Source of the DNA: Limnobaculum xujianqingii
GTDB taxonomy: Bacteria > Pseudomonadota > Gammaproteobacteria > Enterobacterales > Enterobacteriaceae
Length of the DNA stretch: 64,000 nucleotides
NCBI RefSeq assembly: GCF_013394855.1
Contig: NZ_JABMLK010000001.1
Location: 2,809,501-2,873,500 of the forward strand
Direction: 5' to 3'
Each line of letters starts with the position of its first letter. The first letter of the stretch is position 1. The notes below the pieces were generated by a model. It was not told the DNA's origin. It made no database searches and was given only the letters and a program-made list of their open reading frames with translations. This document shows, one piece after another, positions 12,634 to 32,939 of this stretch. The position numbers and the translations under genes were made by a program.

Positions 12634-12636
12634 TTT

Positions 12637-13713
12637 ATGTTCAGCGTTTTAGACCGTTATATCGGCCGCACCATTTTCAGTACCATCATGAGTACCCTGT
12701 TTCTGCTGGTCAGCCTGTCCGGAATCATCAAATTCGTGGATCAGCTGCGTAAAACTGGTAAAGGTGACTATGATGCTCTGGGTGCGGGCCTCTACACCCT
12801 GTTAAGCGTACCAAAAGATATCGAAACCTTTTTCCCGATGGCGGCACTACTGGGTGCACTATTAGGATTAGGGGCGCTGGCAACCCGCAGTGAACTGGTG
12901 GTGATGGAAGCCTCTGGCTTTACCCGGATGCAGATCGCAACCGCAGTAATGAAAACCGCTATTCCTCTGGTATTGCTTACCATGGCGATTGGCGAATGGG
13001 TTGCTCCAATAGGTGAACAAACCGCTCGTAATACCCGCGCTCAAATGATGTACGGTAGTTCACTGCTTTCTACTCGCGACGGAATATGGGCAAAAGATAA
13101 AAATGACTTTATCTATATCCAAAACGTAGTGAAAGAAGACGAACTCTCCGGTGTCAGCATTTATCATTTTGATAAACAACGTAAGCTGCTGTCGGTACGC
13201 TATGCCGGTACCGCCACTTACGATAAAAACAGCAATACCTGGCAGCTATTCCAGATAGATCAATCCGACCTCAGCCAGCCAAATAAAATTGTGGGTACTC
13301 AAACCCTCAGTGAAGAATGGCAAACCAACCTGACGCCGGACAAGCTGGGGGTAGTCGCCATGAACCCGGAATCCCTGTCCGCCAGCGGGCTGTATGAATA
13401 CAGTAAATATCTGAAGCAAAGTGGACAAGAATCTGCACGCTATCAGCTGATTTTCTGGAACAAGGTGCTGTCACCCATATCGGTGGCAGTAATGATGCTG
13501 ATGGCGCTGTCCTTTATTTTTGGTCCATTGCGCAGCGTGCCAATGGGTATTCGGGTGGTCACCGGTATCAGCTTTGGTTTCATCTTCTATGTGCTTGACC
13601 AAATTTTTGGTCCGCTCAGTCTGGTATATGGTGTACCGCCATTTATCGGCGCGTTATTACCAAGCCTGCTGTTTTTGGCTATCAGTATTTTCCTGCTTAA
13701 ACAAAAACGCTAA
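12637..13713 (+). CDS. lptG: LPS export ABC permease LptG
   Basis: Second permease of LptB2FG. 358 residues with the expected start MFSVLDRYIGRTIFSTIM, six membrane helices and a central periplasmic domain; ends in KQKR. Begins three bases after the lptF stop, so translation is coupled. A strong terminator follows nine bases after its stop. Intact and unremarkable. Confidence 0.96.
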   Translation: MFSVLDRYIGRTIFSTIMSTLFLLVSLSGIIKFVDQLRKTGKGDYDALGAGLYTLLSVPKDIETFFPMAALLGALLGLGALATRSELVVMEASGFTRMQIATAVMKTAIPLVLLTMAIGEWVAPIGEQTARNTRAQMMYGSSLLSTRDGIWAKDKNDFIYIQNVVKEDELSGVSIYHFDKQRKLLSVRYAGTATYDKNSNTWQLFQIDQSDLSQPNKIVGTQTLSEEWQTNLTPDKLGVVAMNPESLSASGLYEYSKYLKQSGQESARYQLIFWNKVLSPISVAVMMLMALSFIFGPLRSVPMGIRVVTGISFGFIFYVLDQIFGPLSLVYGVPPFIGALLPSLLFLAISIFLLKQKR

Positions 13714-13721
13714 GTGTCTTC

Positions 13722-13758
13722 AAATGGCGGTGATAACGAATATCACCGCCATTTTACT
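13722..13758 (+). terminator. rho-independent terminator of lptFG
   Basis: Perfect 14-base arms AAATGGCGGTGATA / TATCACCGCCATTT with a 5-base loop, followed by T-rich sequence. Ends the lptF-lptG operon. Confidence 0.9.
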
Positions 13759-13869
13759 TTCCCTGCTAATTATTAAAGAAGATTAAAGAGCATTGAAACA
13801 CTCTATGCTCACGAGTAACATGCCTCTATTAACGATTGATTAACTTACAGGGAAAGCACCTTTATCATC

Positions 13870-14196
13870 ATGAAATTATCATTGTTGCCCAAATTGCTTT
13901 TGATTCTGGCCGTGCTATTCAGCGCACCGGGGTTTGCAATGGCTACAAATCATGATGCCTCCTGTGCCCCGGTATCCGTTACTCAGGAACACCATACCTC
14001 AATGTCACAGCATGATGCTCCGGTAGATCACTGCAATGATAATGCGCATTGTATGCTCTGTTTTTCTGTCGTTCCTTCTATGTCATTTTCTGTTTCTGCC
14101 TCAATAGGTCATGAGCCTTATCTGAACTCTGCTGTCAGTTGGCACTCCCGCTCACTTCAGCCAGAGCCCCATCCTCCCAGAAATCTCAACGTTTAA
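13870..14196 (+). CDS. small secreted Cys/His-rich protein next to cueO
   Basis: 108 residues with a clear signal peptide (LLPKLLLILAVLFSAPGFAMA) and a mature part rich in His, Met and Cys (EHHTSMSQHDAPVDHC, then HCMLCF). The CxxC with nearby histidines suggests metal binding, most likely copper, given the multicopper oxidase gene 146 bases downstream on the same strand. It resembles the small DUF2946/CopL-like proteins in layout, but I cannot confirm a family. Ribosome site is weak. Function inferred from context only. Confidence 0.6.
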   Translation: MKLSLLPKLLLILAVLFSAPGFAMATNHDASCAPVSVTQEHHTSMSQHDAPVDHCNDNAHCMLCFSVVPSMSFSVSASIGHEPYLNSAVSWHSRSLQPEPHPPRNLNV

Positions 14197-14303
14197 ATTA
14201 TCTCGTTTAAACCTGTTAAAGCGACTTATCGGGCTTTTGTCTGTATTTCTGCTTTAGCCTTCAGATTTCAATCGCATGATGCAGTTACAAGCGCATCATT
14301 GCT

Positions 14304-14327
14304 CTGTTCACCATCGACGATGAACAG
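14304..14327 (+). promoter_or_regulatory. inverted repeat in cueO leader
   Basis: Arms CTGTTCA (14304-14310) and TGAACAG (14321-14327) around a partly self-complementary centre. It ends 15 bases before the cueO ATG, so it would cover the region just upstream of the ribosome site (ATGAGGAT). It could be an operator or an mRNA hairpin. It does not look like a CueR site. Confidence 0.35.
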
Positions 14328-14342
14328 TATGAGGATAACATT

Positions 14343-15863
14343 ATGAACCGCAGACTATTTTTAACTAAACTTGCAGCGGCAGTAGGCACTATGGCCGCTG
14401 CTAAAGTGATGGCACAGCCTCACCATATGGAAAAGATGTCCTCCGGACATGGCATGGGAAACATGTCCCGTCACGATATGGGCAATATGCCAATGGGGGG
14501 AATGCATAACGGCAATTTACTGCCAGAATCCGCTTTGCCCAAAAACCTGCCGCTACCAGATTTAAAAAAGCTGCTTAATACCAACGATAAGCCTGGTTAT
14601 TTCAGCGCATCCCTTACGGCTAAACCGGTTCGGGTACAGTTAACCCCACAGGTAGAAACCGAATTCTGGGCCTATAACGACCAGATCCCCGGCCCTGCCA
14701 TCGAAGTGTTTGAAGGGGATACGGTAGAAATTCTGTTTAAAAATGAATTACCGCAGCCTACTACCGTACACTGGCACGGATTACCGGTTCCACCGGATCA
14801 GGATGGCAACCCGCAAGACGAAGTCGCTCCCGGTGCTTCTCGCGTGTATAAATTCACTCTGCCAGAAGGCTGTGCCGGTACCTATTGGTATCACCCTCAT
14901 GGACATAACACCGTGGCTGAACAGGCATTTCGTGGTCTGGCCGGAGTATTTATCGTTAAGCCAAAACAGGATCAGCTATCGCATATTCCTGTACAGAACT
15001 GGCTAATCTCCGATTTAAAACTCAGTGAAGACGGTCAAATTGCACCAAACTCCATGATGGACTGGATGAACGGTCGGGAGGGGCAGTTTGTTCTGATCAA
15101 CGGTGCATCACATCCGGAAATCACGCTGAATCAGGCAACCCGTGCCCGCCTGTGGAATGCCTGCTCGGGGCGCTACCTTAATCTGTCGCTGAACGATGCG
15201 GATATCTACCTGATTGGTACCGATGGTGGCCTGTTGGAACAGCCTTATAAGCTCACCACCCTGTTGCTAACACCGGGTGAACGAGCTGAAATTCTGGTGG
15301 TACCAAAAAAATCCGGCACCCAAAGCCTTCAGGCATTGGCTTACGATCGCGGCAAGATGGGTTGCACTACTGAAGAAGTCACCCGCTCACTGGCATCCAT
15401 TAAGCTGAAAGAGAGCTCATTGCCTGAATTACCGCAAAAACTGGCCAGTCTGCCAAATATCGGCAAAGCCAGCGCGGTAAAAACGCTGGAATACACCGAA
15501 ACCATGGATATGGGCAAAGGCATGTCCGGGATGAACTTCCTGATTAACGGTAAAAAACACGATCCAAAACGTATCGATCTCACCAGTAAAGTGGGTGAAG
15601 TCGAAGAATGGGAAATCTTCAATAACTCCCATATGGACCATAACTTCCATCTGCACGGCACGCAATTTACCGTGGTCAGCTACCAGCTCAACGGCCAGTC
15701 GCGCCTGCCGGAATATATCGGCCATAAAGACACCATTAATCTGAAACCTAATGAGCGAGTACGCATTAAGCTGGTTCAGCAGCATAAAGGCTTACGTATG
15801 TATCACTGTCATATTCTGGAGCATGAAACCCTGGGTATGATGGGACAGTTGAATGTGATTTAA
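14343..15863 (+). CDS. cueO: CueO-type multicopper oxidase
   Basis: Periplasmic cuprous oxidase protecting against copper. 506 residues. The twin-arginine signal is NRRLFLTKL. A Met/His-rich stretch follows directly (HGMGNMSRHDMGNMPMGG), unlike E. coli CueO, whose Met-rich part is central. All four copper motifs are seen: HWHG, YWYHPHGH, HNFHLHG and MYHCHILEHE, the last giving the type 1 site with its axial Met (GMMGQL). So the enzyme should be active. Downstream it converges on the epimerase gene. Confidence 0.93.
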   Translation: MNRRLFLTKLAAAVGTMAAAKVMAQPHHMEKMSSGHGMGNMSRHDMGNMPMGGMHNGNLLPESALPKNLPLPDLKKLLNTNDKPGYFSASLTAKPVRVQLTPQVETEFWAYNDQIPGPAIEVFEGDTVEILFKNELPQPTTVHWHGLPVPPDQDGNPQDEVAPGASRVYKFTLPEGCAGTYWYHPHGHNTVAEQAFRGLAGVFIVKPKQDQLSHIPVQNWLISDLKLSEDGQIAPNSMMDWMNGREGQFVLINGASHPEITLNQATRARLWNACSGRYLNLSLNDADIYLIGTDGGLLEQPYKLTTLLLTPGERAEILVVPKKSGTQSLQALAYDRGKMGCTTEEVTRSLASIKLKESSLPELPQKLASLPNIGKASAVKTLEYTETMDMGKGMSGMNFLINGKKHDPKRIDLTSKVGEVEEWEIFNNSHMDHNFHLHGTQFTVVSYQLNGQSRLPEYIGHKDTINLKPNERVRIKLVQQHKGLRMYHCHILEHETLGMMGQLNVI

Positions 15864-15892
15864 TCACCGACTGGCAAAATATTAGTGACAGA

Positions 15893-15925
15893 AAAGTCCG
15901 GCCGAACAATCGGCCGGATAATCAT
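15893..15925. terminator. terminator hairpin between cueO and the epimerase gene
   Basis: Arms TCCGGCCGA (15897-15905) and TCGGCCGGA (15910-15918) with a 4-base loop. Short A/T-rich flanks on both sides suit a weak bidirectional terminator between convergent genes. Confidence 0.6.
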
Positions 15926-15942
15926 AATCAGATTTGATAACG

Positions 15943-16857
15943 TTAAACAATCGATATATCCCAGCGAGTTTCAATGACTAATGGCCTATCCACCGTCACT
16001 ATCGTCGGAGCAGTATTCACGCTATTTGGTGGTCCGGACAGTGGCTCAACACAGGCAGCATCTGGCTGTTTATTGAATACCACCATCGATGGCGCCGCTG
16101 ATGACATGTTTAACTGAAGCTTACCCGGCCACAGTAACGTGGCAGACATGCCATTATTGAAGCCGAAACAGTCGTCCCACGGGCCCGGCTGTGGTTCGAT
16201 TCGTTTGCCAGTGGGCAGTTCGTTATCACCAGGCTCTTCTTGCCAGTCTGCATTAAAGCTAACCTGTAGCTCATCATCCTCATGACCAGGCTGAGCCTGC
16301 GTTACATATTCAGTGTCACTAGTCCACTTGGCAAACCACGGGTGCCAACCAGCCGCCGCAGGGAACGATTCATTCTCTGTTTTAACCATCAGGCTGACCA
16401 ACAGTGCATCTTCCTGTAGTTCAAAACGTTGAATCACCTCGCCACGCCAAGGCCAGGGATGCTCTAATTTAAAGCTAAACGTGGCTGAATCCGCAGAGGT
16501 TTCTATAATTTGCCAGGGAGCAAAACAGGCCATACCGTGCAGAGCATGGGGGTTTTTGTTCATGGGCAATGAATAACGCTGCCCCTCAAACTCCAGTTGT
16601 GCATTTCCCATTCGCCCCACCCATGGAATCATGGGGAAACAGCCATATTGAAAAGCACGTCGCTGTGGATTCCACTGGCGCAATAACTCATAACCAAATG
16701 CATTAAGTGAAGTTAAACGACAGCCATCTTCAGGATATATCACCGCCTTAATAGCGCCTTTACTGAGTACCACTTTTGGCCCACGTGGGCCAGCCCATGG
16801 GGCATCAAATGCTTGTCTGACTGCCATATAGGGGTTGTTATCTAAAACCATAGTCAT
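15943..16857 (-). CDS. aldose 1-epimerase family protein
   Basis: Galactose-mutarotase fold enzyme that interconverts alpha and beta anomers of an aldose. 304 residues with HALHGM, the second catalytic His region AAGWHPWFAK and a glutamate in CVEPLSGPPNSVN. Last gene of the leftward operon yihU - aldolase - dehydrogenase - MFS - MFS - epimerase. In E. coli the sulfoquinovose locus also carries an aldose epimerase (YihR), so mutarotation of an imported (sulfo)sugar is the likely job. Sequence alone does not tell the substrate. Confidence 0.8.
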   Translation of the reverse strand: MTMVLDNNPYMAVRQAFDAPWAGPRGPKVVLSKGAIKAVIYPEDGCRLTSLNAFGYELLRQWNPQRRAFQYGCFPMIPWVGRMGNAQLEFEGQRYSLPMNKNPHALHGMACFAPWQIIETSADSATFSFKLEHPWPWRGEVIQRFELQEDALLVSLMVKTENESFPAAAGWHPWFAKWTSDTEYVTQAQPGHEDDELQVSFNADWQEEPGDNELPTGKRIEPQPGPWDDCFGFNNGMSATLLWPGKLQLNMSSAAPSMVVFNKQPDAACVEPLSGPPNSVNTAPTIVTVDRPLVIETRWDISIV

Positions 16858-16892
16858 CTTTATTCATCCTCTGTTCGCAATATTTTTAATCA

Positions 16893-18275
16893 TTATTTAG
16901 TTTGAGGGTCGCCGTAGTTCACGCGAATTAACTGCACGCAAACTAAAGAGATAACGGATATTCCGGCAAAATAGGCGGCAACATACCAGGGTTTACCATC
17001 ACCTAACGCCAGCAACGATGAAGCAATTAACGGCGTCATCCCACCGAGAATGGCGGAAAACTGATAGGCAAACGACAAACCGGTATAACGCACTTTGGTA
17101 CCAAACATACGGACAAACATGGTCGGCTGAACGGCAAACATCATGGTTGGGCCAAAGTTATAGCCAACAATCATGGCAAACCAGATAACCAGCGGCTGCT
17201 GGGTTTCCAGCAACAAGAAGAATGGGAAGGCGAACAGCATACAAAAAGCTGCACCGGCCATATACAACGGCCGCTGCCCTACCCGGTCGGAAATCCAGCC
17301 AATTAGCGGACAGCTAATTAAACCAATCGCCGAGGCGATCAACATCCCCGTAAGAGGAATTTGTCTGTCCATTGCCAACTGAGTTGATAAATAAGCAATA
17401 CCAAACGCATTGATAATATTAGAAGAGACGGTTTCTGCTAAACGCGCCCCCAGCGCCAAAAAGATATTGCGAGGATGACGGCGAAACAGCTCAATAATCG
17501 GTAATGACTCTTTTTTCTTCCACTGCTGTCCGTTGTCATCTCGCTGAGCCATCGGTACCGTCAGAATTGCCTGTTTCTCCGCGATCACTTCCCGTTTAGC
17601 ATGTTTGAAGTCACCCGTTTCTTCCGTGTGAATGCGGATATACATACCAACAATCAGCATCACCGCCGATAGCAGGAAAGGAATACGCCATCCCCAGGAC
17701 ATAAACTGCTCCTGAGTCAGCAAACCATTACATAAAGCAAACACCCCGGTTGCCAGCATAATTCCGGCAGACGCCGCCGTTTGGGGCAACGACCCCAGAA
17801 AACCGCGCTTACTCTGAGGGGCCGATTCGATGGTCATCAGCGCAGCTCCGCCATACTCACCGCCTAAACCAAAGCCTTGAACCAGCCGCAGAACCACTAA
17901 TAGTGCAGGAGCCCAAACCCCGGCATTGGCGTAAGTGGGTAATAATCCGATTAAGAAAGTAGATATACCTACGATCACCAGCGTCCAGATCAGGGTAACT
18001 TTTCGGCCAATCTTGTCGCCATAATGCCCAAAAACAATACCCCCCAATGGACGGGCCAAAAAACCTACGCCAAAGGTAGCAAACGCGGCGATGGTACCAA
18101 CCACTGGATCTTCCTGTGGAAAGAATAGTGGGCCAAATACCAGCCCTGCTGCCGTACCAAAAATGAAAAAGTCATACCACTCCAGCAGAGCACCCGCGAA
18201 GCTGGCGGCAACCACCTTACGCATGGCGGCATCAGGTAATCCATCGTTGGCAATATGATTTTTATCCATATCCAT
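16893..18275 (-). CDS. MFS transporter, metabolite:H+ symporter type
   Basis: Twelve-helix major facilitator of the shikimate/proline-betaine (MHS) type. Typical words are GALLEWYDFFIFGTAAGLVF at the first helix and FGVGFLARPLGGIVFGHYGDKIGRK in the 2-3 loop, plus LRLVQGFGLGGEYGGA. Start taken at the ATG at 18275 (MDMDKNH) behind GGAGG; an upstream start adds 19 residues without a ribosome site. 460 residues. MHS members carry organic acids and zwitterions. In this operon it could import the sulfonated substrate or export the C3 sulfonate product; inference only. Confidence 0.8.
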   Translation of the reverse strand: MDMDKNHIANDGLPDAAMRKVVAASFAGALLEWYDFFIFGTAAGLVFGPLFFPQEDPVVGTIAAFATFGVGFLARPLGGIVFGHYGDKIGRKVTLIWTLVIVGISTFLIGLLPTYANAGVWAPALLVVLRLVQGFGLGGEYGGAALMTIESAPQSKRGFLGSLPQTAASAGIMLATGVFALCNGLLTQEQFMSWGWRIPFLLSAVMLIVGMYIRIHTEETGDFKHAKREVIAEKQAILTVPMAQRDDNGQQWKKKESLPIIELFRRHPRNIFLALGARLAETVSSNIINAFGIAYLSTQLAMDRQIPLTGMLIASAIGLISCPLIGWISDRVGQRPLYMAGAAFCMLFAFPFFLLLETQQPLVIWFAMIVGYNFGPTMMFAVQPTMFVRMFGTKVRYTGLSFAYQFSAILGGMTPLIASSLLALGDGKPWYVAAYFAGISVISLVCVQLIRVNYGDPQTK

Positions 18276-18393
18276 ACTCTGTTCCTCCGTGCTACCAGCC
18301 TGAGTCGATAAATACGCTATGACCAATAACAACGATATTGCTGAGGATTAGCAGCAGTCACCGGCAGAACAAGCATTCTGCCGGTGCATGGTG

Positions 18394-19836
18394 TTAACGA
18401 CTCTGCTTGTTAGATTCAATCAATGCCAAAACTTCTTCGTCTTCCGCATCAACGTTGGCACCAATCGGTTCCCAACGAATGCACAGACAGGTAGCAAAAC
18501 CGATGAACGGTACAATCGCCAGCCAGAAAAATGCCTGAGTGTTCAACGCGCCCCACAACATTGGCCAGAAGATTAATCCGGCAATCGCCCCGGTACGCAT
18601 AATTGCCCGGGCAAAACCCACACCCGCAGGACGAATACTTGGAGGGTAAGACAGCGTTGCAATAGTCATTCCCAGACCACCAGGTCCCGCAGAATGGAAG
18701 AAGATGATTGAACCCAGTAATGCCAGTGACAGCCACGGATTAGTGGTAGCCAGTAAGCCCAATGCAATTAGCGCGATAGTGACCATGGCAAAACCAAACA
18801 TCGACTGGCGGCGTGCGCCAAACTTACTGACAATCAGTGAACCAATCGCACCGCCGGTTACGCCACATAAAGCATTCACCACCGCAGAACCGGTTAATGC
18901 TCCAGTAAGCCCACCGCTCAATATTCCCGCCAGCGTCAACGGCAAGTAGACCCCCACCGCGTTGTACTGCCATGCCTGCATGGTGGCAACAATACAACCC
19001 AGAATGGTACGGCGACGATATTTCTGGTTAAACAAAATACTGTACGCCCCTTCAATTTTGACTTTTTGTTCACCTTCTGGCTGCTGTTGGATTTGTTCGC
19101 CCACAGAGGCATCAATGCCATAACGCTGCTTTAACATCTTACATGACAACGCATATTTACCCACCCTGGCTGCCCACATGGCAGACTCACCAATAAATAC
19201 ATAGCGTAAAATCATGACCAGTACGGCGAAGCCTGCACCAATAAAGATGCCGTAACGCCATAACTGACCATCCGCTACTTCAGACAGATGTAACGGAATC
19301 AATACCAGATACACAATGGTAGTGGATACATACCACCCCATTTGCCACAAGTTGACCGAAGAACCCGACTTTTTCGACGACGTTCCGCGCAATTCAGCCA
19401 CTGCACTGGTTGCCAACGGGAAGTCGATACCCAGGCCGAATCCCATAATCACCCGCGATACCAGAACCCACCAGATATTAGGTGCAAAAGCCACCGCCGC
19501 TGCCCCAATGGTGCATAGCCCCATGCCAATCAAAAAGGCTTTACGTTGACCAAAGGTGTTAATCACCCGGTTTGCCAACAGACCACCAATAAGCGCCGCT
19601 ACCAACACTGAGGCGTTAACGGTCGCCGCCAGCCCTGGGGAAATACCAAACTCTGCTGCAATAAACTTGTTACCAAAACCTACCATCGCTGCCTGATAGG
19701 CATCGATTAAAATTCCACCCAGCGCAATCAGAACAATGCCAATATTCGAGCGCAGTGCCGCATGATTATTGACAATATCAATGACATCCTGAGGGCGACT
19801 TATCCGATATGTCGTTCGGGCTGAAGTCTGTGTCAT
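18394..19836 (-). CDS. MFS transporter, sugar-porter-like
   Basis: 480-residue MFS protein with GLLANRVINTFGQRKAFLIG in the first signature loop and RVIMGFGLGIDFPLATS in helix 5. A cytosolic loop separates the halves (about 215-260). It starts with AAGGA upstream and is the first of two MFS genes in the operon, 162 bases after the dehydrogenase stop. It is not of the GPH family used for sulfoquinovose (YihO) in E. coli. Two MFS genes in one catabolic operon suggest one importer and one product exporter, but which is which cannot be seen. Confidence 0.8.
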   Translation of the reverse strand: MTQTSARTTYRISRPQDVIDIVNNHAALRSNIGIVLIALGGILIDAYQAAMVGFGNKFIAAEFGISPGLAATVNASVLVAALIGGLLANRVINTFGQRKAFLIGMGLCTIGAAAVAFAPNIWWVLVSRVIMGFGLGIDFPLATSAVAELRGTSSKKSGSSVNLWQMGWYVSTTIVYLVLIPLHLSEVADGQLWRYGIFIGAGFAVLVMILRYVFIGESAMWAARVGKYALSCKMLKQRYGIDASVGEQIQQQPEGEQKVKIEGAYSILFNQKYRRRTILGCIVATMQAWQYNAVGVYLPLTLAGILSGGLTGALTGSAVVNALCGVTGGAIGSLIVSKFGARRQSMFGFAMVTIALIALGLLATTNPWLSLALLGSIIFFHSAGPGGLGMTIATLSYPPSIRPAGVGFARAIMRTGAIAGLIFWPMLWGALNTQAFFWLAIVPFIGFATCLCIRWEPIGANVDAEDEEVLALIESNKQSR

Positions 19837-19998
19837 GTTTGTATCCTTACTATTCCAGTAATAGATTAATTTTTGTTTTCAGCTGAAAAGCCGGTAAGCC
19901 GGGCAGATAGGTTCTGTTTAATTCTTTGGTTATATTCAGAACTCAGCCACCCGGAGATAAACAAACAACAAGGTTATAAGTAGCCAGACAACAGCCGG

Positions 19999-21006
19999 TT
20001 ATTGTTCAAACTTAATCAGTACTTTGATTGAGGTTGGTTGCTTAGCACGGGCAAATGCTTCCGATGCCTGACTGACCGGGAAAACATCCGTTACCAGATC
20101 GGTGGTATCGAACAGGCCATCCGCCAGCCAGCCAATAACCACGTCAAAATCTTCCGGCACATACATACCTGAGCTAATTAAATCCCGTTCGAAGCGCTGC
20201 ATGCTTGGTAATGGAATTTCACGCGGACCGCTCGGTACGCCCATACAAACCACGGTTCCTCCCGCCATGACTTTGGTACAGGCATCCGTTATCGTGGCCT
20301 GCGAGGCAACAACATCAATCACGCCAGTAAAGCGTTCATCATCCGCCAGCTCTCCCGGAGCCAGCGCCCGGTATGCACCATATTTAATGGCCAGTTCGCG
20401 TTTTTTGCTGTCCGGCTCCACCACCGTGATTTTTTCTGCACCCATAATGCGCAGTGCCTGAATCACTGACAGACCAATGGTACCGGCACCGATAACCAGC
20501 ACGATTTCACGCGACTCTTTAGGCATACGGTTAACGCAGTGGCGGGCACAAGCCGCAGGCTCGGCAAACGCCAGTACGTTCATCGGTAATGATTTTGGTG
20601 CGATATGCAGGTTTCTGGCGGGGACTACATGGGAAGATCGGGCAAAACCCGGCGCCCGGAATCCGGCAACCTGAGGCGGTTCACACAGATTAAAGCGCCC
20701 GGCTTTACAGGCCCTGCACTCCATACAGGCCATAATCGGGTCAACCACCACATGATCCCCAACGCTGACATTAGTGACGCCAGAGCCAATTTCTTTAACT
20801 ACGGCGGCAATTTCATGTCCCGGAACAATGGGCGGTTTAGCGAACGGATGACCATCAGCCAAAACATGGAGATCGGAACCACAAATCCCCAGATAAACGG
20901 GTGCAATACGCACTTCGTGGGCCGCCAGAGGCTTCACCGGCAGATCGTGATATTCAGTGGTCACTTCCCCTACCGCTGAGAATAAGACATTTGTGACTTT
21001 GCTCAT
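19999..21006 (-). CDS. zinc-dependent polyol/alcohol dehydrogenase
   Basis: Medium-chain dehydrogenase of the sorbitol/threonine dehydrogenase type. Start taken at MSKVTNV (ATG 21006, AAGGA upstream; 21009 is equally possible). Catalytic zinc ligands Cys42, His64 and Glu65 (VPGHE) and four structural-zinc cysteines 94, 97, 100 and 108 are present; the NAD site is VIGAGTIGLS. Lies between the aldolase and MFS genes, 95 bases from the aldolase start. In sugar operons such enzymes oxidise a polyol to a ketose or a hydroxyl to a ketone. Here it could make 6-deoxy-6-sulfofructose from a sulfo-alditol, an inference without direct evidence. Confidence 0.85.
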   Translation of the reverse strand: MSKVTNVLFSAVGEVTTEYHDLPVKPLAAHEVRIAPVYLGICGSDLHVLADGHPFAKPPIVPGHEIAAVVKEIGSGVTNVSVGDHVVVDPIMACMECRACKAGRFNLCEPPQVAGFRAPGFARSSHVVPARNLHIAPKSLPMNVLAFAEPAACARHCVNRMPKESREIVLVIGAGTIGLSVIQALRIMGAEKITVVEPDSKKRELAIKYGAYRALAPGELADDERFTGVIDVVASQATITDACTKVMAGGTVVCMGVPSGPREIPLPSMQRFERDLISSGMYVPEDFDVVIGWLADGLFDTTDLVTDVFPVSQASEAFARAKQPTSIKVLIKFEQ

Positions 21007-21101
21007 CATAAAGATCCTTACCAATCATAAAGAAGCTGTTATTCAGGCCATCGGGTGATGGTTACCCGATGGTCATCAGAAAAGTGAAACTATGCGGTCG
21101 G

Positions 21102-21965
21102 TCAAAACTCCGCCGCTTTACCGCTACTGCCAAACAGGCGAATCTTTTCTCTTACTCGCTGTTGCATAAACTCAGAACCGCGCCCCAAAGAGATAGCCAG
21201 GGTGTACTCATCAGGATCTTTAGCTAACACATCCAGCACGCCTTCAGTAAATGCCTGACGCAGTTCGGTATCCACATTCACTTTGGCTACGCCCAGTGAA
21301 ATTGCCCGGCGAATTTGCTCATCGGGAACACCAGAACCGCCGTGCAGCACAATTGGTTTTTTCACCGTATCGCGAATCTCACTTAAACGCTGAAAAGCCA
21401 GCTTGGGTTCCTGCTTATACATGCCATGAGCAGTACCAATCGACACTGCCAGATAGTCCACGGCTGTTTGTTCGGCAAACGCTAACGCCTCTTCACAACT
21501 GGTAATAAAGGCATCTTTCTCATCAACGGAAATATCATCTTCCGTTCCTCCGATTTTACCGATTTCTCCTTCAGAACCTATATCTAAAGCGTGTGCAACC
21601 TGCGCAACTGCATGAGTAATTCTCACATTCTCTTCAAAGCTCAGGTGCGAGCCATCAAACATCACCGAATGGAACCCGGCCCGTACTGCCTGCATGGTTT
21701 GTTCAAAGCTACGGCTGTGGTCCAGATGAATACATACCGGCACTGAACACTCCGCCATAAACGCATCCACCATCTCTTTCATTGGTTGTAAACCCAGAGT
21801 ATTAATTACCCGCTGACCAATCTGGATCATCACCGGTGACTGTTCCTGTTCGGCTGCCAGCAAAATAGCGCGAATAGTTTCAGCGTTATGTGCACTAAAG
21901 GCACCAATGGCGTAGCCCCCTTTCCAGGCCTGCTGAATCATTTGTTTACCCGATAAATACGGCAT
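21102..21965 (-). CDS. class II aldolase, GatY/KbaY type
   Basis: Zinc-dependent ketose-1-phosphate aldolase, 287 residues. Catalytic Asp82 and zinc ligand His83 lie in HLDH, the other zinc ligands are His180 (GTAHG) and His208 (VLHGGSG), at the same numbers as tagatose-bisphosphate aldolases GatY/KbaY. The phosphate site GGSGVP and VNVDTELR are intact. The gene stands between yihU and the dehydrogenase, where a sulfofructose-1-phosphate aldolase is needed. E. coli uses the unrelated class I enzyme YihT for this. I infer it splits a 6-sulfo-hexulose 1-phosphate into DHAP and sulfolactaldehyde; tagatose-type stereochemistry is also possible. Confidence 0.85.
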   Translation of the reverse strand: MPYLSGKQMIQQAWKGGYAIGAFSAHNAETIRAILLAAEQEQSPVMIQIGQRVINTLGLQPMKEMVDAFMAECSVPVCIHLDHSRSFEQTMQAVRAGFHSVMFDGSHLSFEENVRITHAVAQVAHALDIGSEGEIGKIGGTEDDISVDEKDAFITSCEEALAFAEQTAVDYLAVSIGTAHGMYKQEPKLAFQRLSEIRDTVKKPIVLHGGSGVPDEQIRRAISLGVAKVNVDTELRQAFTEGVLDVLAKDPDEYTLAISLGRGSEFMQQRVREKIRLFGSSGKAAEF

Positions 21966-22015
21966 TATTTTCTTCTCCCTTAATTTCTGTTTACGATTAG
22001 GTTATGGGGTTTGGG

Positions 22016-22903
22016 TTATGCTTCACTACGGCCGGAAATTTTTCGCACATGGGCCAGAATTGCGGTCCAGTCTTGTCTGCCTCGCCCCGCAGCTCTGGCC
22101 TGGCTGTATACTTCGCGCGCCGCCGCGCCAAGCGGCATAGGCACATGCAGTTGATTGGCTACGTCCAGCGCTATGCCTAAATCTTTGTGGGCAAGATCGA
22201 TCATAAAGGCCGGGCTGAGGTCACCTTTCAGCACTTTATTAGGCCAGCTGGTCGTAAAATGCCCTTTTCCCACTGGCGTGTTGGACATCACCTGAATAGC
22301 AACATCTAAAGGCAAGCCAAGGGCCTCACACATCACAGCTGCTTCCGCTGACAGGGCATTCAAGGCAATACTCATATAGTTATTAATCAGTTTGACCCGA
22401 ATCCCCATACCCGGGCCGGAACAATTCACCAGCTCGGAGCCCATACACATCAGAACAGATCTGGCTTTTTCCACCTGCGCCTCCGTTCCACCCGCCAGAA
22501 TCAACAGCGTTCCGGCAATGGCATGGTCAGAGGTGCGTCCTACTGGCGCATCCATATAGCTGAAACCCTGTTGTGACATTTTTTGACACAAACGATCGCT
22601 GTGTAATGGATGGATGGTGGACATATCAATCACCAGTGCCTGTTTTGACAGCGATTCATTTACCCCGCCATCACCAAACAGTACCTGCTCAACCAAATCG
22701 CCGTTGGGCAGCATAGTAATGACAAACTCGGCACCTGAAGCCGCAGCTGATGGGCTATCCGCACTTCTGGCCCCTAAGCCCGTTAACACTTCAACCGCCT
22801 GACGATTAACGTCGTATACACAGAGCTGATGCCCTTTTTTAATCAGGTTAGCGGCCATCGGAGCGCCCATCTGTCCCAATCCAATAAATGCTACGAATGC
22901 CAT
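22016..22903 (-). CDS. yihU: 3-sulfolactaldehyde reductase (YihU orthologue)
   Basis: NADH-dependent reductase of the beta-hydroxyacid dehydrogenase family that turns sulfolactaldehyde into 2,3-dihydroxypropane-1-sulfonate. 295 residues (E. coli 298). Rossmann motif [12 protein letters not shown]. The catalytic lysine is Lys171 in KLINNYMS. The residues I recall as the sulfonate-binding set of E. coli YihU, Arg123 (GRTS), Asn174 and Ser178, are all present at the same numbers. The C-terminal half is nearly word-for-word E. coli ([20 protein letters not shown]). First gene of the leftward operon, with AGGAGG before its ATG. Confidence 0.9.
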
Positions 22904-22994
22904 CCCCTACCTCCTGATCATTATTGATAGAAATTGTTCGTTTTTGTCATTTTTGAAATTGAATTTGATGTTATTTGTAATTTTAAGTAATTAA

Positions 22995-23010
22995 AGTGAC
23001 GCAAATCACT
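22995..23010. promoter_or_regulatory. CRP-like site between yihU and yihV
   Basis: AGTGACGCAAATCACT fits the CRP pattern GTGA-N6-TCAC symmetrically. It is central in the 181-base divergent region. Just before yihV the word GACAATA occurs twice, at 23049-23055 and 23059-23065, one helical turn apart, a possible operator half-site pair for the DeoR-type regulator CsqR. Both would control the divergent operons. Prediction by eye. Confidence 0.55.
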
Positions 23011-23084
23011 CTTTCAGCATTTATTTGAATTAAAATGGACAGCAATACGACAATATCTGACAATAATGAAAAAGGAGCCTGACA

Positions 23085-23981
23085 ATGATAAAGATCGCCT
23101 GTATTGGTATTGCGGTTCAGGACCGCCTGTATTACGTGGAAAAGCTGCCTCAGGGCGGCGGAAAATATGTTGCACAGGACTACAAAGAAATTGGAGGTGG
23201 ACCCGCAGCAACCGCAGCGGTTGCCATTGCCCGACTGGGGGCTCAGGTCGATTTCATCGGCAGGTTAGGTGATGATGCAACAGGAAAAACCTTGCTATCA
23301 GAGCTGGAATCATCCGGTGTAAATACCTCGCTGACCAAAATCTTCAGTCAGGCTCGCTCATCTCAGTCGGCGGTATTGGTAGATCAACAGGGTGAACGCA
23401 TTATTATTAATCACCCAAGTCCTGACCTTTCTTATGACCCGGACTGGATGAAACAGATTGATTTCAGTCAATACGATTTGGTACTGGCGGATGTTCGCTG
23501 GCATCAGGGGGCTGAATATGCCTTCACTCAGGCCAGAGCAGCCGGGGTTCCTACCTTGCTGGATGCGGATATTACCCCACAAGACATCCTGCCATTAATC
23601 CAGTTGGCGGATCATGCTGCCTTTTCTGAACCAGGATTAATCAAAGCTACCGGTGAAAACGATGTGACAAAAGCGCTCACTCTGGCAGACCACATGACAC
23701 CGGGAACCGTATATGTCACCAGGGGAAAATCCGGCTGCTTTTGGCTGGAGCAGCAAGAGCTACAACATCAGTCTGGTTTTAGCGTGAATGTGGTAGACAC
23801 GACCGGAGCCGGGGATGTATTCCACGGCGCGCTAGCTTTCGCACTGGCAGAAAAACAGCCGTTGGCGCAGGCAGTACGTTTTGCCAATGCGGTTGCCGCC
23901 TTAAAATGTACCCAGCCGGGAGGACGAGCCGGCATTCCGGATCGCCATCAAACTGACGCCTTTTTGTCACTTTGTGTATAG
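23085..23981 (+). CDS. yihV: 6-deoxy-6-sulfofructose kinase (YihV orthologue)
   Basis: PfkB-family kinase that phosphorylates sulfofructose at C1 with ATP. 298 residues, identical length to E. coli YihV. The PfkB signature VVDTTGAGDVFHGALAFA contains the catalytic Asp. Residues I recall as contacting the sulfonate in E. coli YihV, Lys27 (GGGKY), Asn109 (IIINH) and Arg138 (ADVRWH), are all kept at the same positions. Long stretches such as GGGPAATAAVA and HAAFSEPGL match E. coli. Divergent from yihU, followed by csqR; AAGGAG before the ATG. Confidence 0.9.
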   Translation: MIKIACIGIAVQDRLYYVEKLPQGGGKYVAQDYKEIGGGPAATAAVAIARLGAQVDFIGRLGDDATGKTLLSELESSGVNTSLTKIFSQARSSQSAVLVDQQGERIIINHPSPDLSYDPDWMKQIDFSQYDLVLADVRWHQGAEYAFTQARAAGVPTLLDADITPQDILPLIQLADHAAFSEPGLIKATGENDVTKALTLADHMTPGTVYVTRGKSGCFWLEQQELQHQSGFSVNVVDTTGAGDVFHGALAFALAEKQPLAQAVRFANAVAALKCTQPGGRAGIPDRHQTDAFLSLCV

Positions 23982-24029
23982 AATAGTCACCATTAAAGCG
24001 AAGCGATGTCAATTTATGGGAGACAGAGG

Positions 24030-24815
24030 ATGGAATTGACGGAACTAACGGGTAATCCGAGGCACGATCATCTGATTACGCTGATAGCCGAACACGGTTA
24101 TATGAATATTGAAGATCTGGCGCAGATTTTAGATGTATCTACCCAGACGGTACGGCGGGATATCCGTAAGTTAAGCGAGTTAGGGCTGATTTCCCGACAT
24201 CATGGCGGGGCTGGCCGACCTTCCAGCGTGATGAACACCGCTTTTGAACAGCGTGAAATTTCCTATACCAATGAGAAAATTGCCATTGCCCGCAACATTG
24301 CTGAGTACATCCCTGATGGCTGTACTCTGTTTATGACCATTGGTACCACGGTGGAACACGTCGCCAGAGCATTAGAAGTACGTAAAAATTTACGGGTTAT
24401 CACTAACAGCCTGCGCGCCGCCCATATTTTGTATAAGCATACTTCGTTTGAAGTGATGGTTCCAGGTGGAACTATTCGCCCGCATAACGGCGGAATCATT
24501 GGCCCCAGTGCGGTGTCGTTTGTTGAGGGTTTTCGCGCTGACTATCTGATTACCAGCATGGGAGCCATTGAGAACGACGGCAGCATTCTGGAGTTTGATG
24601 TTAACGAAGCGGCGATAGTGAAAGCGATGATCGCACATTCCCGCCATATGCTACTGGCGGCGGATCACACCAAATATCATGCTTCTGCAGCCGTAGAAAT
24701 TGGTAATGTAAATCAGGCTACCGCCCTGTTTACCGATGAAATGCCGCCGGTACAGCTGGCTTCTTATCTGAAGCAGCAGCAGGTTGAGATCCACGTTTCT
24801 CCCCCGGAGAAATAG
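24030..24815 (+). CDS. csqR: DeoR-family repressor of sulfoglycolysis (CsqR/YihW orthologue)
   Basis: 261-residue DeoR-type regulator: N-terminal winged helix (GYMNIEDLAQILDVSTQTVR) with the DeoR signature RRDIRKLSELGL, then a sugar-phosphate-sensing domain (FMTIGTTVEHVARAL, VMVPGGTIRPHNGGIIG). Length and start (MELTELTGNPRHD) agree with E. coli CsqR/YihW, which represses the sulfoquinovose genes. Start placed at ATG 24030 behind GGGAG; an ATG 24 bases upstream is less likely. Forms an operon with yihV and probably regulates both divergent transcripts. A strong terminator follows. Confidence 0.9.
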   Translation: MELTELTGNPRHDHLITLIAEHGYMNIEDLAQILDVSTQTVRRDIRKLSELGLISRHHGGAGRPSSVMNTAFEQREISYTNEKIAIARNIAEYIPDGCTLFMTIGTTVEHVARALEVRKNLRVITNSLRAAHILYKHTSFEVMVPGGTIRPHNGGIIGPSAVSFVEGFRADYLITSMGAIENDGSILEFDVNEAAIVKAMIAHSRHMLLAADHTKYHASAAVEIGNVNQATALFTDEMPPVQLASYLKQQQVEIHVSPPEK

Positions 24816-25132: not shown

Positions 25133-26170
25133 ATGAGCGACAAGATTCAGCATTCTTTACGAAAGACTTTAGTGTGTACCTGCATGGGTTTAACTATGAT
25201 GGCAGGATCGGCCATTAGCAGTCTGGCTAATGCCGCCCCAACCGTCTCATTTCGCGTTTACTCCTCATTGCCTGCTGACGAAAACTCAGCTCACTACGTT
25301 TGGTTTCAGCGTTTCCAGAACAATCTGGAAGCCAATGAAAATTTAAAAGGCAAAATCAAACTGAATTACTTCCCTAACGGTATGTTAGGCAAAGAGGCCG
25401 ACGCGACTCAACAAGTGCGTATCGGTGCTATCAATATGATGATTTCCGGCAGCTCCATTTGGGCCACACTGGTACCTGAAGTGGGCGTGCTGGACTTAGG
25501 TTATCTGTTTAAAGACTACGAGCACGTTGGCCGTGCGCTGGATGGTAAGCCGGGCAAACAGCTTTCCGATATGATGATGCAAAAAGCTAACGTGATGGTT
25601 CTGGGCTATGGCTATAGCCTGGGAGCCCGCAATATCTACACCAAAAAAGTGGTGGATAGCCCTGCCGATCTGAAAAACTTAAAAGTGCGCGTATTACCGG
25701 TGCCTAACTTTATTGCCACATTAAACAGTATGGGAACCGTCGCCATTCCAATGCCCGGTGGTGAAGTTTACTCCGGCTTGCAAATGGGTGTGATTGACGG
25801 CGTAGAACACGATGCGGCTACCGTATTTGCCAGCAAATATTATGAAATTGCCAAAAACGCCACCCTCACCCAGCACATTTACAACCCGGTGCTGATTGCC
25901 ATGAACAAAGCCTCATTTGAACGCATTCCGGAAAACCTGCGCGCCGATGTACTGGCAGCGGCAACCGAAGCCACCAACTACGAGCGTCAGCAATCACAAT
26001 CGATGGAAAAAAATGCCATTGTTGAACTGGAGAAAAAAGGCGTGGTGTTTAAAACCACTGACCGGGACTATTTCAAACAACAGGTTCAGCCGGTATGGAA
26101 TGAATTTATTACCAAATATCCGGATATCAAACCTATTGTTGATGAAATTACCAGCGCTGAAAATAAATAA
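25133..26170 (+). CDS. dctP: TRAP transporter solute-binding protein (DctP family)
   Basis: Periplasmic receptor of a tripartite ATP-independent transporter. 345 residues with a signal peptide ending near ANA-AP (residue 35). The conserved arginine that usually clamps a substrate carboxylate is Arg186 in LKVRVLPV, and the DctP words FPNGMLGKEADATQQVRIGAI and GVIDGVEHDAAT are present. Substrate unknown; DctP receptors take organic acids and some take sulfonates such as isethionate or dihydroxypropanesulfonate. Next to a sulfoglycolysis-type locus but under its own promoter. Confidence 0.88.
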   Translation: MSDKIQHSLRKTLVCTCMGLTMMAGSAISSLANAAPTVSFRVYSSLPADENSAHYVWFQRFQNNLEANENLKGKIKLNYFPNGMLGKEADATQQVRIGAINMMISGSSIWATLVPEVGVLDLGYLFKDYEHVGRALDGKPGKQLSDMMMQKANVMVLGYGYSLGARNIYTKKVVDSPADLKNLKVRVLPVPNFIATLNSMGTVAIPMPGGEVYSGLQMGVIDGVEHDAATVFASKYYEIAKNATLTQHIYNPVLIAMNKASFERIPENLRADVLAAATEATNYERQQSQSMEKNAIVELEKKGVVFKTTDRDYFKQQVQPVWNEFITKYPDIKPIVDEITSAENK

Positions 26171-26191
26171 TTAATTAGAAAGGTTATTCCA

Positions 26192-26256
26192 GAAATAACA
26201 GCTGGGCGCAGAGAAACTCCACTCTATCGCTCCGGGGATCCCTGCGCCGTTATTTC
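26192..26256 (+). other. long imperfect hairpin between dctP and dctQM
   Basis: GAAATAAC at 26192 pairs with GTTATTTC ending at 26256, and GGCGCA with TGCGCC inside, enclosing the gap between receptor and permease genes. Such structures stabilise the upstream mRNA and lower permease expression relative to the abundant binding protein. No U-run, so not a full terminator. Confidence 0.55.
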
Positions 26257-26284
26257 ACTGATTGACCACCGACAGAGGTACATT

Positions 26285-28189
26285 ATGTCAGACTCCTCTC
26301 TTATCGAAAAAGAGATCGGCACGGCGGAAAACGCGCCAGCACAAGGCCCGAGAGATATTATGATTCTCAGTAGCCTGAGTCGATTCCTTACCAAAATTAC
26401 CGCCGGTGCGGGAGCCCTGGTGCTGTTTATCAACGTAGTGGTGGTATTCGCCTCGGTTATCTGGCGCTATGCCCTGCACTCACCGCTGCACTGGGCAGAA
26501 GAAGTCGCCAGAGCCTTAATGATTGCGCTGGTCTTTTTTGGTGTTGCCACCTCAACCGGTCGCGGAGGCCATATCGGCGTAGATCTGTTTTTACGCTTTC
26601 TGCCGCCGCACGTTCGCCCTTATGTGGTACATGCCAGCCGCTGGATACTGTTTATGGTTTCTATCGGCCTGGTGATTTCAAGTTACGATCTGGTTCAGGC
26701 CGCCCGCCTGCAAACCACCGAAACCGGTCTGCCGCAGGTTATCTATGTTATTCCTGTATTTATTGGCTCGGTGGTAATGGTGGTTGCCGCGCTGGAACAT
26801 GCGCTACGGGAAAGGCTAAGAGTGGTGGTGCTGAGCGCCGTGGCGATCGCCATATTAGTTGCCATCGGTTACGCCAAACTGTCGTTTATGGATGATCCTT
26901 CCTCTGCGGCGGCAGTATTAATGCTCTCCTGCTTTGTGCTGGGTATTCTGGCCGGTGTACCAATTGCCTTTACGCTCGGCATGTCAGCCATGGTGTTCTT
27001 CATTTGTGATCCGTCACTGCCGTTTGTCTTCTTCTCCCAGCAGGTTGCTGCCGGTGTTGACCACTTTGTGCTACTGGCGATTCCGTTCTTCCTGCTGGCC
27101 GGTGCCGCCATGGAAGTCAACGGCATGTCCACCCGGCTGGTGGAGCTGATTGTGCGCGGTATGGGTAAATTCCGCGGCGGTCTGAATATGACCACGGTGC
27201 TGGCCATGGCGTTCTTCTCCGGTATTTCCGGCTCCAAACTGGCGGACGTCGCCGCTGTGGGCGGGGTATTAATGCCAGCAGTGCGTCGTGCCAAACAGGA
27301 TAGTGAAGAAGCCGCCGGCGTGTTTGCCGCCTCGGCCATGATGGCAGAAACCATCCCGCCATGCGTTAATCTGATTGTATTGGGCTTTGTCGCCAACATC
27401 TCCATTGGCGCACTGTTTATCGCCGGTCTGGTGCCCGCCGCCTGTCTGCTGGTGCTATTACTGATTGCCGCTAACTTCTTTGGTAAACGTATCAGTATTT
27501 CTGATGCCTACCCGATTCTACGTCCACGTAAGCAATTACTGCTGGGTGCGGCGGTTGGCCTGATTATGATTCTGATGATTGGCCGTGGTGTGGTTGCCGG
27601 TATTGCGACCTCTACTGAAATCTCCGCCTTTGCTGTGGTATATGCCCTGGTGGTTGGTCGTCTGGCCTTTGGTGAACTGACCTTAAAAGCAACGGTAAAA
27701 CTGTTTGTGGATATCGCCGCGATGTCCGGCGTACTGCTATTTATCGTGGCCTGTGCCACCAGCCTCTCTTATGCCCTGACTATCCAGATGATTCCGCAAA
27801 TGATTGCCGACGCACTGGTTGCCATCGGCTTTAGCCACGGTGCCTGGCTGTTCCTGATACTGACTATCGTGATTCTGATTATCTTTGGTGCAGTACTGGA
27901 AGGTGCTCCGGCGCTGATTATCTTCGCTCCGATTCTGGTACCGATTGCGGTTCAACTGGGTTTCGATCCGCTGCACTTCGGTATTGTAATGGTGCTGGCA
28001 ATGGGCTTTGGCCTGTTTTCACCGCCAATCGGGCTCGGACTCTATACCACTTGCGCCATTTGCGGCGTAGAGATGAAAAACGTAATTCGCCCGATGCTGA
28101 AATATCTGGCCGTGGTTATGGTCGGGATCATCGTAGTAGCCATGGTGCCAACTATCACAGTTTGGTTGCCAAGACTGATGGGCTACTGA
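26285..28189 (+). CDS. dctQM: TRAP transporter fused small-large permease (DctQM)
   Basis: 634-residue fusion. Residues about 1-190 are the DctQ four-helix part (HWAEEVARALMIALVFFGVATS). Residues about 200-634 are the DctM ion-coupled transport subunit with SGISGSKLADVAAVGGVLMP and MMAETIPPCVNLIVLG. It moves a substrate from DctP through the inner membrane with sodium. Fused QM permeases are common. Operon: dctP, dctQM, SDR, LacI regulator. Confidence 0.9.
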   Translation: MSDSSLIEKEIGTAENAPAQGPRDIMILSSLSRFLTKITAGAGALVLFINVVVVFASVIWRYALHSPLHWAEEVARALMIALVFFGVATSTGRGGHIGVDLFLRFLPPHVRPYVVHASRWILFMVSIGLVISSYDLVQAARLQTTETGLPQVIYVIPVFIGSVVMVVAALEHALRERLRVVVLSAVAIAILVAIGYAKLSFMDDPSSAAAVLMLSCFVLGILAGVPIAFTLGMSAMVFFICDPSLPFVFFSQQVAAGVDHFVLLAIPFFLLAGAAMEVNGMSTRLVELIVRGMGKFRGGLNMTTVLAMAFFSGISGSKLADVAAVGGVLMPAVRRAKQDSEEAAGVFAASAMMAETIPPCVNLIVLGFVANISIGALFIAGLVPAACLLVLLLIAANFFGKRISISDAYPILRPRKQLLLGAAVGLIMILMIGRGVVAGIATSTEISAFAVVYALVVGRLAFGELTLKATVKLFVDIAAMSGVLLFIVACATSLSYALTIQMIPQMIADALVAIGFSHGAWLFLILTIVILIIFGAVLEGAPALIIFAPILVPIAVQLGFDPLHFGIVMVLAMGFGLFSPPIGLGLYTTCAICGVEMKNVIRPMLKYLAVVMVGIIVVAMVPTITVWLPRLMGY

Positions 28190-28266
28190 CAGTAATTTGC
28201 GGCAATGCTCGATATTGCGAAATGTATAAACAATAAATTAATCATTAAAAACAACCGAGGTTTATT

Positions 28267-29040
28267 ATGTTAAGAGAATTAAAAGGAAAACGCGTTCTGA
28301 TCACCGGTTCAACTGCGGGTATTGGACTGGCAACCGCCAAACTGTTTTTACGCTACGGGGCTAAAGTCGGTATTAACGGGCTGAGCGGTATTGATGATGC
28401 TAACACGCTGGCGGAACTGGATCAGTTACCGGGTGAATATTCACTCTTCCCTGCGGACCTGACTAAAAGCGACCACTGTGAAAAACTGGTAAGCGATTTT
28501 ATCACTCAGTTTGGTGGTATGGATGTGCTGATTAACAACGCCGGTGGCCTGGGTGGACGCAGCAATCTGGAGAATATTGACGATGCGTTTTACGACCACG
28601 TCATGGATCTGAACGTACGCTCAGTGCTGATGGTAACCAAATATTCCATCCCGCATTTACGTGCAGCAGCCAAAGAGACCGGCCTGACTACTGCAGTGCT
28701 CAGTACTGGCTCGATTGCCGGACGTGACGGTGCCGGTATCGGCGCGGGTATTTACGGCAGCGCCAAAGCCTGGGTTCATAATATCCATCGCAACTGGGTA
28801 AAAGAATTTACTAAAGATAATATCCGTTTCAACATTGTCTCACCGGGCAGTATTGATACCGCCTTCCATCACGGTAAAAGTGAGGAAGTGCTAACTAATA
28901 TGCGCAACTCTATTGCCATGGGCCGTTTTGGCACCATTGAAGAAGTGGCACCAACCTATCTGTTTCTGGCGACCCATGCCTTCAGCGGTTATATCACCGG
29001 ACAGATTGTGGATGTAAACGGCGGCCAGATGGCGCCATAA
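28267..29040 (+). CDS. short-chain dehydrogenase/reductase
   Basis: 257-residue classical SDR. Cofactor motif TGSTAGIG at 13-20, NNAG at 90-93, catalytic Ser149 (STGSIAG), Tyr163 and Lys167 (YGSAK); C-terminal ITGQIVDVNGGQ. All active residues are present. Lies 77 bases after dctQM, so it most likely oxidises or reduces the compound the TRAP system imports. Substrate cannot be read from sequence. Confidence 0.85.
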   Translation: MLRELKGKRVLITGSTAGIGLATAKLFLRYGAKVGINGLSGIDDANTLAELDQLPGEYSLFPADLTKSDHCEKLVSDFITQFGGMDVLINNAGGLGGRSNLENIDDAFYDHVMDLNVRSVLMVTKYSIPHLRAAAKETGLTTAVLSTGSIAGRDGAGIGAGIYGSAKAWVHNIHRNWVKEFTKDNIRFNIVSPGSIDTAFHHGKSEEVLTNMRNSIAMGRFGTIEEVAPTYLFLATHAFSGYITGQIVDVNGGQMAP

Positions 29041-29155
29041 GCGTTCTGATTTGCGATAGCGGGCCCAGTGAACCGTGCTGTCGTAAATAGATATCGCTTA
29101 CGGATAAAAAACCTTTAGAATCATTGATAAAAATAAACCAGCAGCAGGGAATAAC

Positions 29156-32916: not shown

Positions 32917-32939
32917 AGGCCAAAAGTATAATCTTCCAT

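Follow-up and report, generated by a model that had tools for sequence, protein, structure and literature searches.

A 64,000-nucleotide stretch of the Limnobaculum xujianqingii genome (assembly GCF_013394855.1, contig NZ_JABMLK010000001.1, positions 2,809,501 to 2,873,500 of the forward strand; hereafter the window) contains a cluster of eight genes in two divergent operons at 15943-24815, three of which encode orthologs of the sulfoglycolysis proteins YihV, YihU, and CsqR of Escherichia coli. The rightward operon (+ strand) consists of yihV, for a PfkB-family sulfofructose kinase (23085-23981), and csqR (yihW), for a DeoR-family regulator with HTH_DeoR and DeoRC domains (24006-24815). The leftward operon (− strand) begins with yihU, for 3-sulfolactaldehyde reductase (22016-22903), followed by genes for a class II (metal-dependent) sulfofructose-1-phosphate (SFP) aldolase of the SqiA type (21102-21965); a Zn-dependent medium-chain dehydrogenase (ZnDH; PF08240/PF00107; 19999-21009), proposed below to be a sulfo-hexitol 2-dehydrogenase; a major facilitator superfamily (MFS) transporter, MFS2, with a weak match to aromatic acid/H+ symporter families and a proposed role in uptake or export (18394-19836); an MFS transporter of the metabolite/H+ symporter (MHS) type (TIGR00883, 410 bits, below the cut-off of 443; 16893-18275); and an aldose-1-epimerase-like protein, EPIM, possibly a sulfosugar mutarotase (PF01263, 88 bits; 25% identity to YihR; 15943-16857).

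The operons diverge from a 181-base control region between yihU and yihV (22904-23084), which contains the conserved 10-mer motif TTTGTAATTT at 22974-22983 and a CRP-like GTGA-N6-TCAC sequence at 22996-23009. Of 11 regions between yihU and yihV taken from canonical and variant loci, nine contain the motif AAATTACAAA on either strand, a count in which locus L009 has one mismatch and L028 is represented by 50 bases only. Gene positions, the 181-base control region, and the lengths of YihV (298 codons) and YihU (295 codons) agree with an earlier model-generated reading of the bare sequence (the original prediction), as does its observation as a whole, namely that YihU, YihV, and CsqR are kept beside a class II aldolase, a ZnDH, and two MFS proteins of other families. 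The 261 codons it gave for csqR hold if the second ATG is the start, whereas counting from the first ATG gives 269. Its description of the likeness to E. coli as almost word for word was too strong, the identities to K-12 proteins being 67% for YihV, 74% for YihU, and 74% for CsqR. The EPIM gene, which it did not name, is a member of the cluster.

The best Protein Data Bank (PDB) matches of the core enzymes were sulfofructose kinase 7ag6 for YihV (437 bits) and sulfolactaldehyde reductase 6sm7 for YihU (466 bits), and YihU also scored 522 bits on the NCBIfam sulfolactaldehyde 3-reductase model PRK15461, whose cut-off is 348. The sulfonate-contact positions, R123/N174/S178 in YihU and K27/N109/R138 in YihV, are all retained in the window, as originally predicted. 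Across 42 aligned rows, which include three genomes twice, the YihU triad was conserved in 40 and the YihV triad in 39. The exceptions at these contacts were two divergent clusters considered further below, L087 (K-N-S in YihU, K-V-S in YihV) and L088 (no YihU match, K-V-S in YihV). In L076 (genome G1095), the YihV alignment has gaps at three contact positions and was left unscored, the frame being possibly broken or wrongly started.

The best PDB matches of the window aldolase were 8q57 and 8q58 (506 bits), both class II SFP aldolases. Of the 287 residues of 8q57, all but one are shared with the aldolase encoded in a Yersinia aldovae locus (L012) that carries yihQ and sqvD matches, and the window enzyme is 80% identical to that Y. 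aldovae aldolase. In the draft of this locus, the sqvD, yihQ, and yihO matches at 12055-18495 are each split across two open frames, reflecting draft errors or broken genes. Among the 19 clusters that share the gene order of the window (described below), six, including the window, have the class II enzyme and 13 have a class I YihT, and both types occur within a single genus code, g370 (class II in G819, class I in G923 and G993). The YihT of the E. coli version of the cluster, 67% identical to K-12 YihT, has sulfofructosephosphate aldolases as its best PDB matches. Because unrelated aldolases are exchanged in an otherwise constant cluster, it can be argued that the reaction of this slot is SFP cleavage. 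The occurrence of class II SFP aldolases in clusters of proteobacteria was itself already known, according to the available text of PMC12890257 (section 3.1) and PMC10991401 (CsqR phylogeny section).

Other genes of sulfoquinovose pathways were sought with protein queries for YihS, SqvD, YihT, and YihP, none of which found a match in the whole genome, with positive controls for YihS and SqvD only (two of two control genomes matched for each). The SqvD query was a Yersinia alsatica gene (L010, 12038-13381) identified by its fucose-isomerase domain, PF02952, and from reviews. A search with the AGE family model PF07221 was also empty, but its control missed E. coli as well, and the YihS negative therefore rests on the YihS protein searches. 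No YihQ ortholog was found in the genome, where the sole GH31 match was 23% identical to YihQ, a search in which GH188 sulfoquinovosidases were not queried; window positions 10001-35000 contained no match to YihS, YihT, YihQ, SqvD, or YihO. The genome-wide check for yihS, yihQ, yihT, and sqvD that accompanied the original prediction as a proposal was thus carried out and found none of them. Set against a sulfoglycolytic Embden-Meyerhof-Parnas (sulfo-EMP) pathway that starts from sulfoquinovose, homology predicts the YihV kinase with its contacts, the SFP aldolase, and the sulfolactaldehyde reductase, whereas the isomerase (YihS or SqvD) and the sulfoquinovosidase YihQ were not found. Because of these two missing enzymes, the cluster is assigned as a new variant, sulfo-EMP-like from sulfofructose onward. 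Judged by these homologies, the half leading from sulfofructose to dihydroxypropanesulfonate is very probably encoded here.

The distribution of the additional genes was assessed in 31 loci, comprising 27 from an aldolase scan of genome contigs together with the window, K-12 (L036), E. coli AVS0947 (L037), and G218 (L050), with presence called at score thresholds set by the analyst. ZnDH, MFS2, MHS, and EPIM were all present in seven loci and all absent from the other 24; MFS2 thus occurred in 7/7 ZnDH loci and 0/24 of the others. None of the seven block-bearing loci contained YihQ, YihS, SqvD, or YihO, and YihQ was present in 17 of the 24 others. Eight loci had the aldolase only, without CsqR, YihV, and YihU. 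The 23 loci with these three proteins comprised the seven with the block and no YihQ and 16 others, 15 of which had YihQ (the exception being L017). Phylogenetic analysis of CsqR, YihV, and YihU together (22 rows) placed the seven variant rows in three places, and a single clade was rejected (approximately unbiased test, p-AU 0.0137).

In wider samples, ZnDH was found in three of 394 genomes of the order (E ≤1e-100), in the same three genomes in the phylum sample (3/398, E ≤1e-90), and in 21 of 392 genomes of the family (E ≤1e-90), which represent 15 of 154 genera; ZnDH relatives also occur in Telmatospirillum, Rhodopseudomonas, and Streptomyces. The comparison of gene neighborhoods in related genomes, another check proposed at the outset, revealed a recurring cluster in the family sample: 18 of the 20 other ZnDH stretches (five with class II and 13 with class I aldolases), or 19 of 21 with the window, have the standard eight-gene order, spanning 13 genus codes (13 of the 15 ZnDH genera), and only L087 and L088 deviate. 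The original prediction of a recombined sulfosugar pathway, possibly with a different entry compound, is therefore supported as to a different entry step, given the SFP-type lower half and the lack of any isomerase or YihQ ortholog found, and not as to a local recombination, given this recurrence. No match to the E. coli cassette by megablast, and none to ZnDH at E ≤1e-60, was obtained in a plasmid collection, which leaves a plasmid carrier unsupported; two cassette places in the E. coli collection lie on records labeled as plasmid. The Citrobacter cassette (L033) had no megablast match in E. coli, from which it is too diverged for megablast.

All of the 32 aligned ZnDH sequences share C43, H65, E66, and E150 as well as C95/C98/C101/C109, which are presumably the zinc ligands. 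Among nine K-12 relatives compared, the best scores were to RspB (31% identity), LgoD (28%), and YdjJ (28%), with GatD at 32% over 192 residues. LgoD is annotated as an L-galactonate oxidoreductase and converts an acid-ended polyol to an acid-ended ketose; by analogy, the same kind of oxidation applied to a 6-sulfo-hexitol would yield sulfofructose, the substrate of YihV. EPIM, despite its PF01263 domain, scored 46 bits against a cut-off of 251 for the YihR-type model PRK15172. The His of its HPWF motif is retained across EPIM copies. At the position of the catalytic Glu of YihR, the copies of the window, Budvicia, and Leminorella have Glu, and those of E. coli, Vibrio, and Citrobacter have Asn. 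The closest named relative of EPIM, at 97%, is from a metagenome-assembled genome of L. xujianqingii.

The reading favored here, with a probability of about 0.5, is that the cluster encodes a sulfo-EMP pathway entered from a sulfonated sugar alcohol and not from sulfoquinovose. An MFS symporter would import a 6-deoxy-6-sulfo-hexitol, most simply in the glucitol or mannitol form, and ZnDH, as a best guess, would oxidize it at C2 with NAD+ to 6-deoxy-6-sulfofructose, with EPIM perhaps assisting sugar ring forms. YihV would then make SFP from sulfofructose by phosphorylation, and the aldolase, class II here and the class I enzyme YihT in E. coli, would cleave SFP to dihydroxyacetone phosphate and sulfolactaldehyde. 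YihU would use NADH to reduce sulfolactaldehyde to dihydroxypropanesulfonate, for export by the second MFS protein. The NADH from the ZnDH step could fund the YihU step, and CsqR would regulate both operons through the shared 181-base region. We infer the oxidation step and its cofactor, the identity of the hexitol, the directions of the transporters, and the role of EPIM. As a guess, the sulfo-hexitol might be sulfoquinovose that another organism has reduced.

Entry could instead be from another sulfonated carbohydrate, such as sulfofucose, sulforhamnose, or a sulfonated ketose, with ZnDH acting on a different carbon or on a side group. The epimerase-family gene would suit such a ring-forming sugar. 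Class II aldolases are usually stereospecific, however, and the closeness of the window enzyme to that of Y. aldovae points to a fructo configuration; although other sulfosugars such as sulfofucose do exist (available text of PMC12421959), this route seems distinctly unlikely.

The cluster is also known from E. coli, as the short yih cassette, which has the regulator, kinase, YihU, aldolase, ZnDH, two MFS, and epimerase genes in the order of the window, apart from the class of the aldolase. Of 5,426 complete E. coli genomes, 1,314 match at least 80% of the AVS0947 copy (L037; 8,559 bases). Unlike the window, the E. coli cassette has a class I YihT, and its chromosomal site is different, being bordered by typA/yihN and yihX in E. 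coli, whereas a CueO-like gene lies on the epimerase side in the window. The original prediction that canonical yih genes are absent in comparison with E. coli consequently holds for the K-12 type and not for these 1,314 genomes. DNA of the K-12 yihV-csqR type matched in 4,002 of the 5,426 genomes and was at least 80% covered in 3,992; a yihU-yihV-csqR place of either kind was found in 5,317, with a maximum of one per genome, and in none of the remaining 109. Given this single place per genome, an E. coli strain with such a place would have one kind of cassette or the other.

In E. coli Nissle 1917 (NZ_CP007799.1, 4490202-4498760), all eight genes lie between yihN and yihX. The available text of Kaznadzey et al. 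2025 (PMC12608037) lists four genes, describes the Nissle short form as a truncated yihTUVW, and reports no induction of the examined cassette genes by sulfoquinovose; its main text uses none of the terms "alcohol dehydrogenase," "zinc," and "class II." The available text of PMC13427033 notes the unique genetic content and the mutual exclusivity and gives the block no function, and no paper assigning one was found in a literature search, beyond whose reach most subscription papers lay. A reading of the cluster as a sulfoquinovose cassette that is truncated and in decay, after the published description of the short form in E. coli, would be in line with the missing known entry genes and with the lack of induction in Nissle, but it is very improbable. 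The frames are complete, and ratios of nonsynonymous to synonymous change (pN/pS) were 0.10-0.22 for the eight genes between the window and Budvicia and 0.05-0.25 for seven genes (MHS not included) between E. coli and G218, rough values with synonymous sites near saturation. The same eight genes recur in 13 genera of the family sample, and four of them are extra genes, not in the canonical loci compared. On the low pN/pS in both genome pairs, decay of the cassette was rejected.

Other known systems share parts of this arrangement. Like the K-12 yih sulfo-EMP cluster, the window has CsqR, YihV, and YihU orthologs with a divergent promoter, as well as predicted SFP cleavage and a predicted dihydroxypropanesulfonate product; unlike it, the window lacks YihS, YihQ, and YihO/P, has an aldolase of class II, and adds ZnDH, a distant epimerase, and two MFS proteins of other families. 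The hybrid sulfo-EMP/EMP2 loci of Yersinia and Serratia (and of Hafnia, per the available text of PMC10991401) likewise place a class II SFP aldolase beside YihU, YihV, and CsqR, but the Yersinia and Serratia loci L010-L012 carry an SqvD-type isomerase, a GalM-like mutarotase, YihQ, and YihO, and no ZnDH. The K-12 ydj operon offers an analogy, with a DeoR regulator, PfkB kinase, class II aldolase, Zn-dehydrogenases, MFS transporters, and a reductase; it differs from the window in having an aldo-keto reductase in place of YihU and in identities of 23-38% where BLAST matched, ydjG being unmatched. The ydj kinase and aldolase favor carboxylate-ended long sugars (available text of PMC9602453, citing Huddleston 2019).

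Several observations weigh against entry from a sulfonated sugar alcohol. The literature search found no paper naming a sulfo-alditol under any of six names. Even the nearer of the nine K-12 enzymes compared share only about 30% identity with ZnDH, and the tree leaves the nearest undecided; with Asn replacing the catalytic Glu in three of its copies (E. coli, Vibrio, and Citrobacter), EPIM may not be a mutarotase. Long branches meet in the core tree, whose starred branches taken alone are compatible with a single origin. In Nissle, growth on sulfoquinovose is low and comparable to that of K-12, and sulfoquinovose releases YihW from DNA, though more weakly (available text of PMC12608037). Finally, the divergent ZnDH loci L087 and L088 lack the sulfonate signature, so the ZnDH block may also serve other acid-ended sugars and may, to go by the aligned residues, accompany enzymes possibly unable to handle sulfonate.

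The Nissle results bear on a further alternative, in which the pathway would continue to start from sulfoquinovose: a general reductase of aldoses, or an aldo-keto reductase, encoded elsewhere would reduce it at C1, and ZnDH would reoxidize the resulting hexitol at C2, so that a polyol bypass replaces the isomerase. The L. xujianqingii genome has seven aldo/keto-reductase-family matches, and Nissle, which has the cassette and is reported to have no yihO/P/Q/R/S homolog, nevertheless shows the growth and YihW release described above. Against this, the cluster contains neither an aldose reductase nor a glycosidase, and the examined Nissle cassette genes were not induced by sulfoquinovose (available text of PMC12608037), and such a bypass is considered unlikely.

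The divergent loci L087 (3708-12353) and L088 (6918-15180) combine ZnDH with a distant kinase and a distant class II aldolase (35%) without the sulfonate residues, and past the MHS gene of L088 lie genes for an enolase-superfamily-like protein and an aldehyde dehydrogenase (13702-15180). These loci possibly represent a sister pathway for another acid sugar, and at the level of aligned residues they show that the contacts are not dictated by family membership. The loss of sulfonate residues in both also favors degradation of a non-sulfonated acid sugar, a hexonate or uronate analog, with tartronate-semialdehyde-like chemistry at the YihU step, as do the kinship of YihU to tartronate semialdehyde reductase and the ydj precedent with carboxylated substrates (available text of PMC9602453). 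Such a substrate is nonetheless improbable for the window, where the contacts are kept, as they are in every scorable standard-order cluster (YihV of L076 being unscorable), and both kinds of aldolase are of the sulfo type.

Outside the cluster, genes for a tripartite ATP-independent periplasmic (TRAP) transporter, a short-chain dehydrogenase/reductase (SDR), and a LacI-family regulator adjoin csqR at 25133-30208. They were rejected as cluster members, since a search at E ≤1e-40 of 25 variant stretches, which come from 22 genomes with three represented twice, placed them beside the cluster only in the same-genus L071, in which the TRAP solute-binding gene matches in three pieces. Farther along, at 31064-34148, a tRNA-Leu gene precedes a fragment with an integrase domain and an IS200/IS605 transposase accompanied by a gene for the RNA-guided nuclease TnpB, possibly an island remnant at the tRNA-Leu gene. 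A PsiF-like protein of 178 aa with a repeat unit apparently present three times is encoded at 44944-45480. A tRNA-Asp (anticodon ATC) called by ARAGORN at 59673-59748 is probably false, lying inside an ABC-permease-like open frame (58043-59857).

The cluster probably lets gut and water bacteria consume a sulfur-bearing sugar alcohol in place of the plant sugar sulfoquinovose. If so, gut and environmental bacteria would use sulfonated sugar alcohols, which to our knowledge are not known as bacterial food, in a pathway ending in dihydroxypropanesulfonate, which is among the sulfonates that Bilophila converts to hydrogen sulfide (available text of the review PMC12890257). More tentatively, about 24% of complete E. 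coli genomes may carry a dedicated sulfo-alditol pathway at a single chromosomal site where other strains have the sulfoquinovose cassette, with strains split between two sulfosugar diets. Such an entry compound would account for the persistence, in about a quarter of complete E. coli genomes, of a cassette that sulfoquinovose does not induce in Nissle 1917, and the presence of the same cluster in that strain makes the puzzle of the published "truncated" cassette directly testable.

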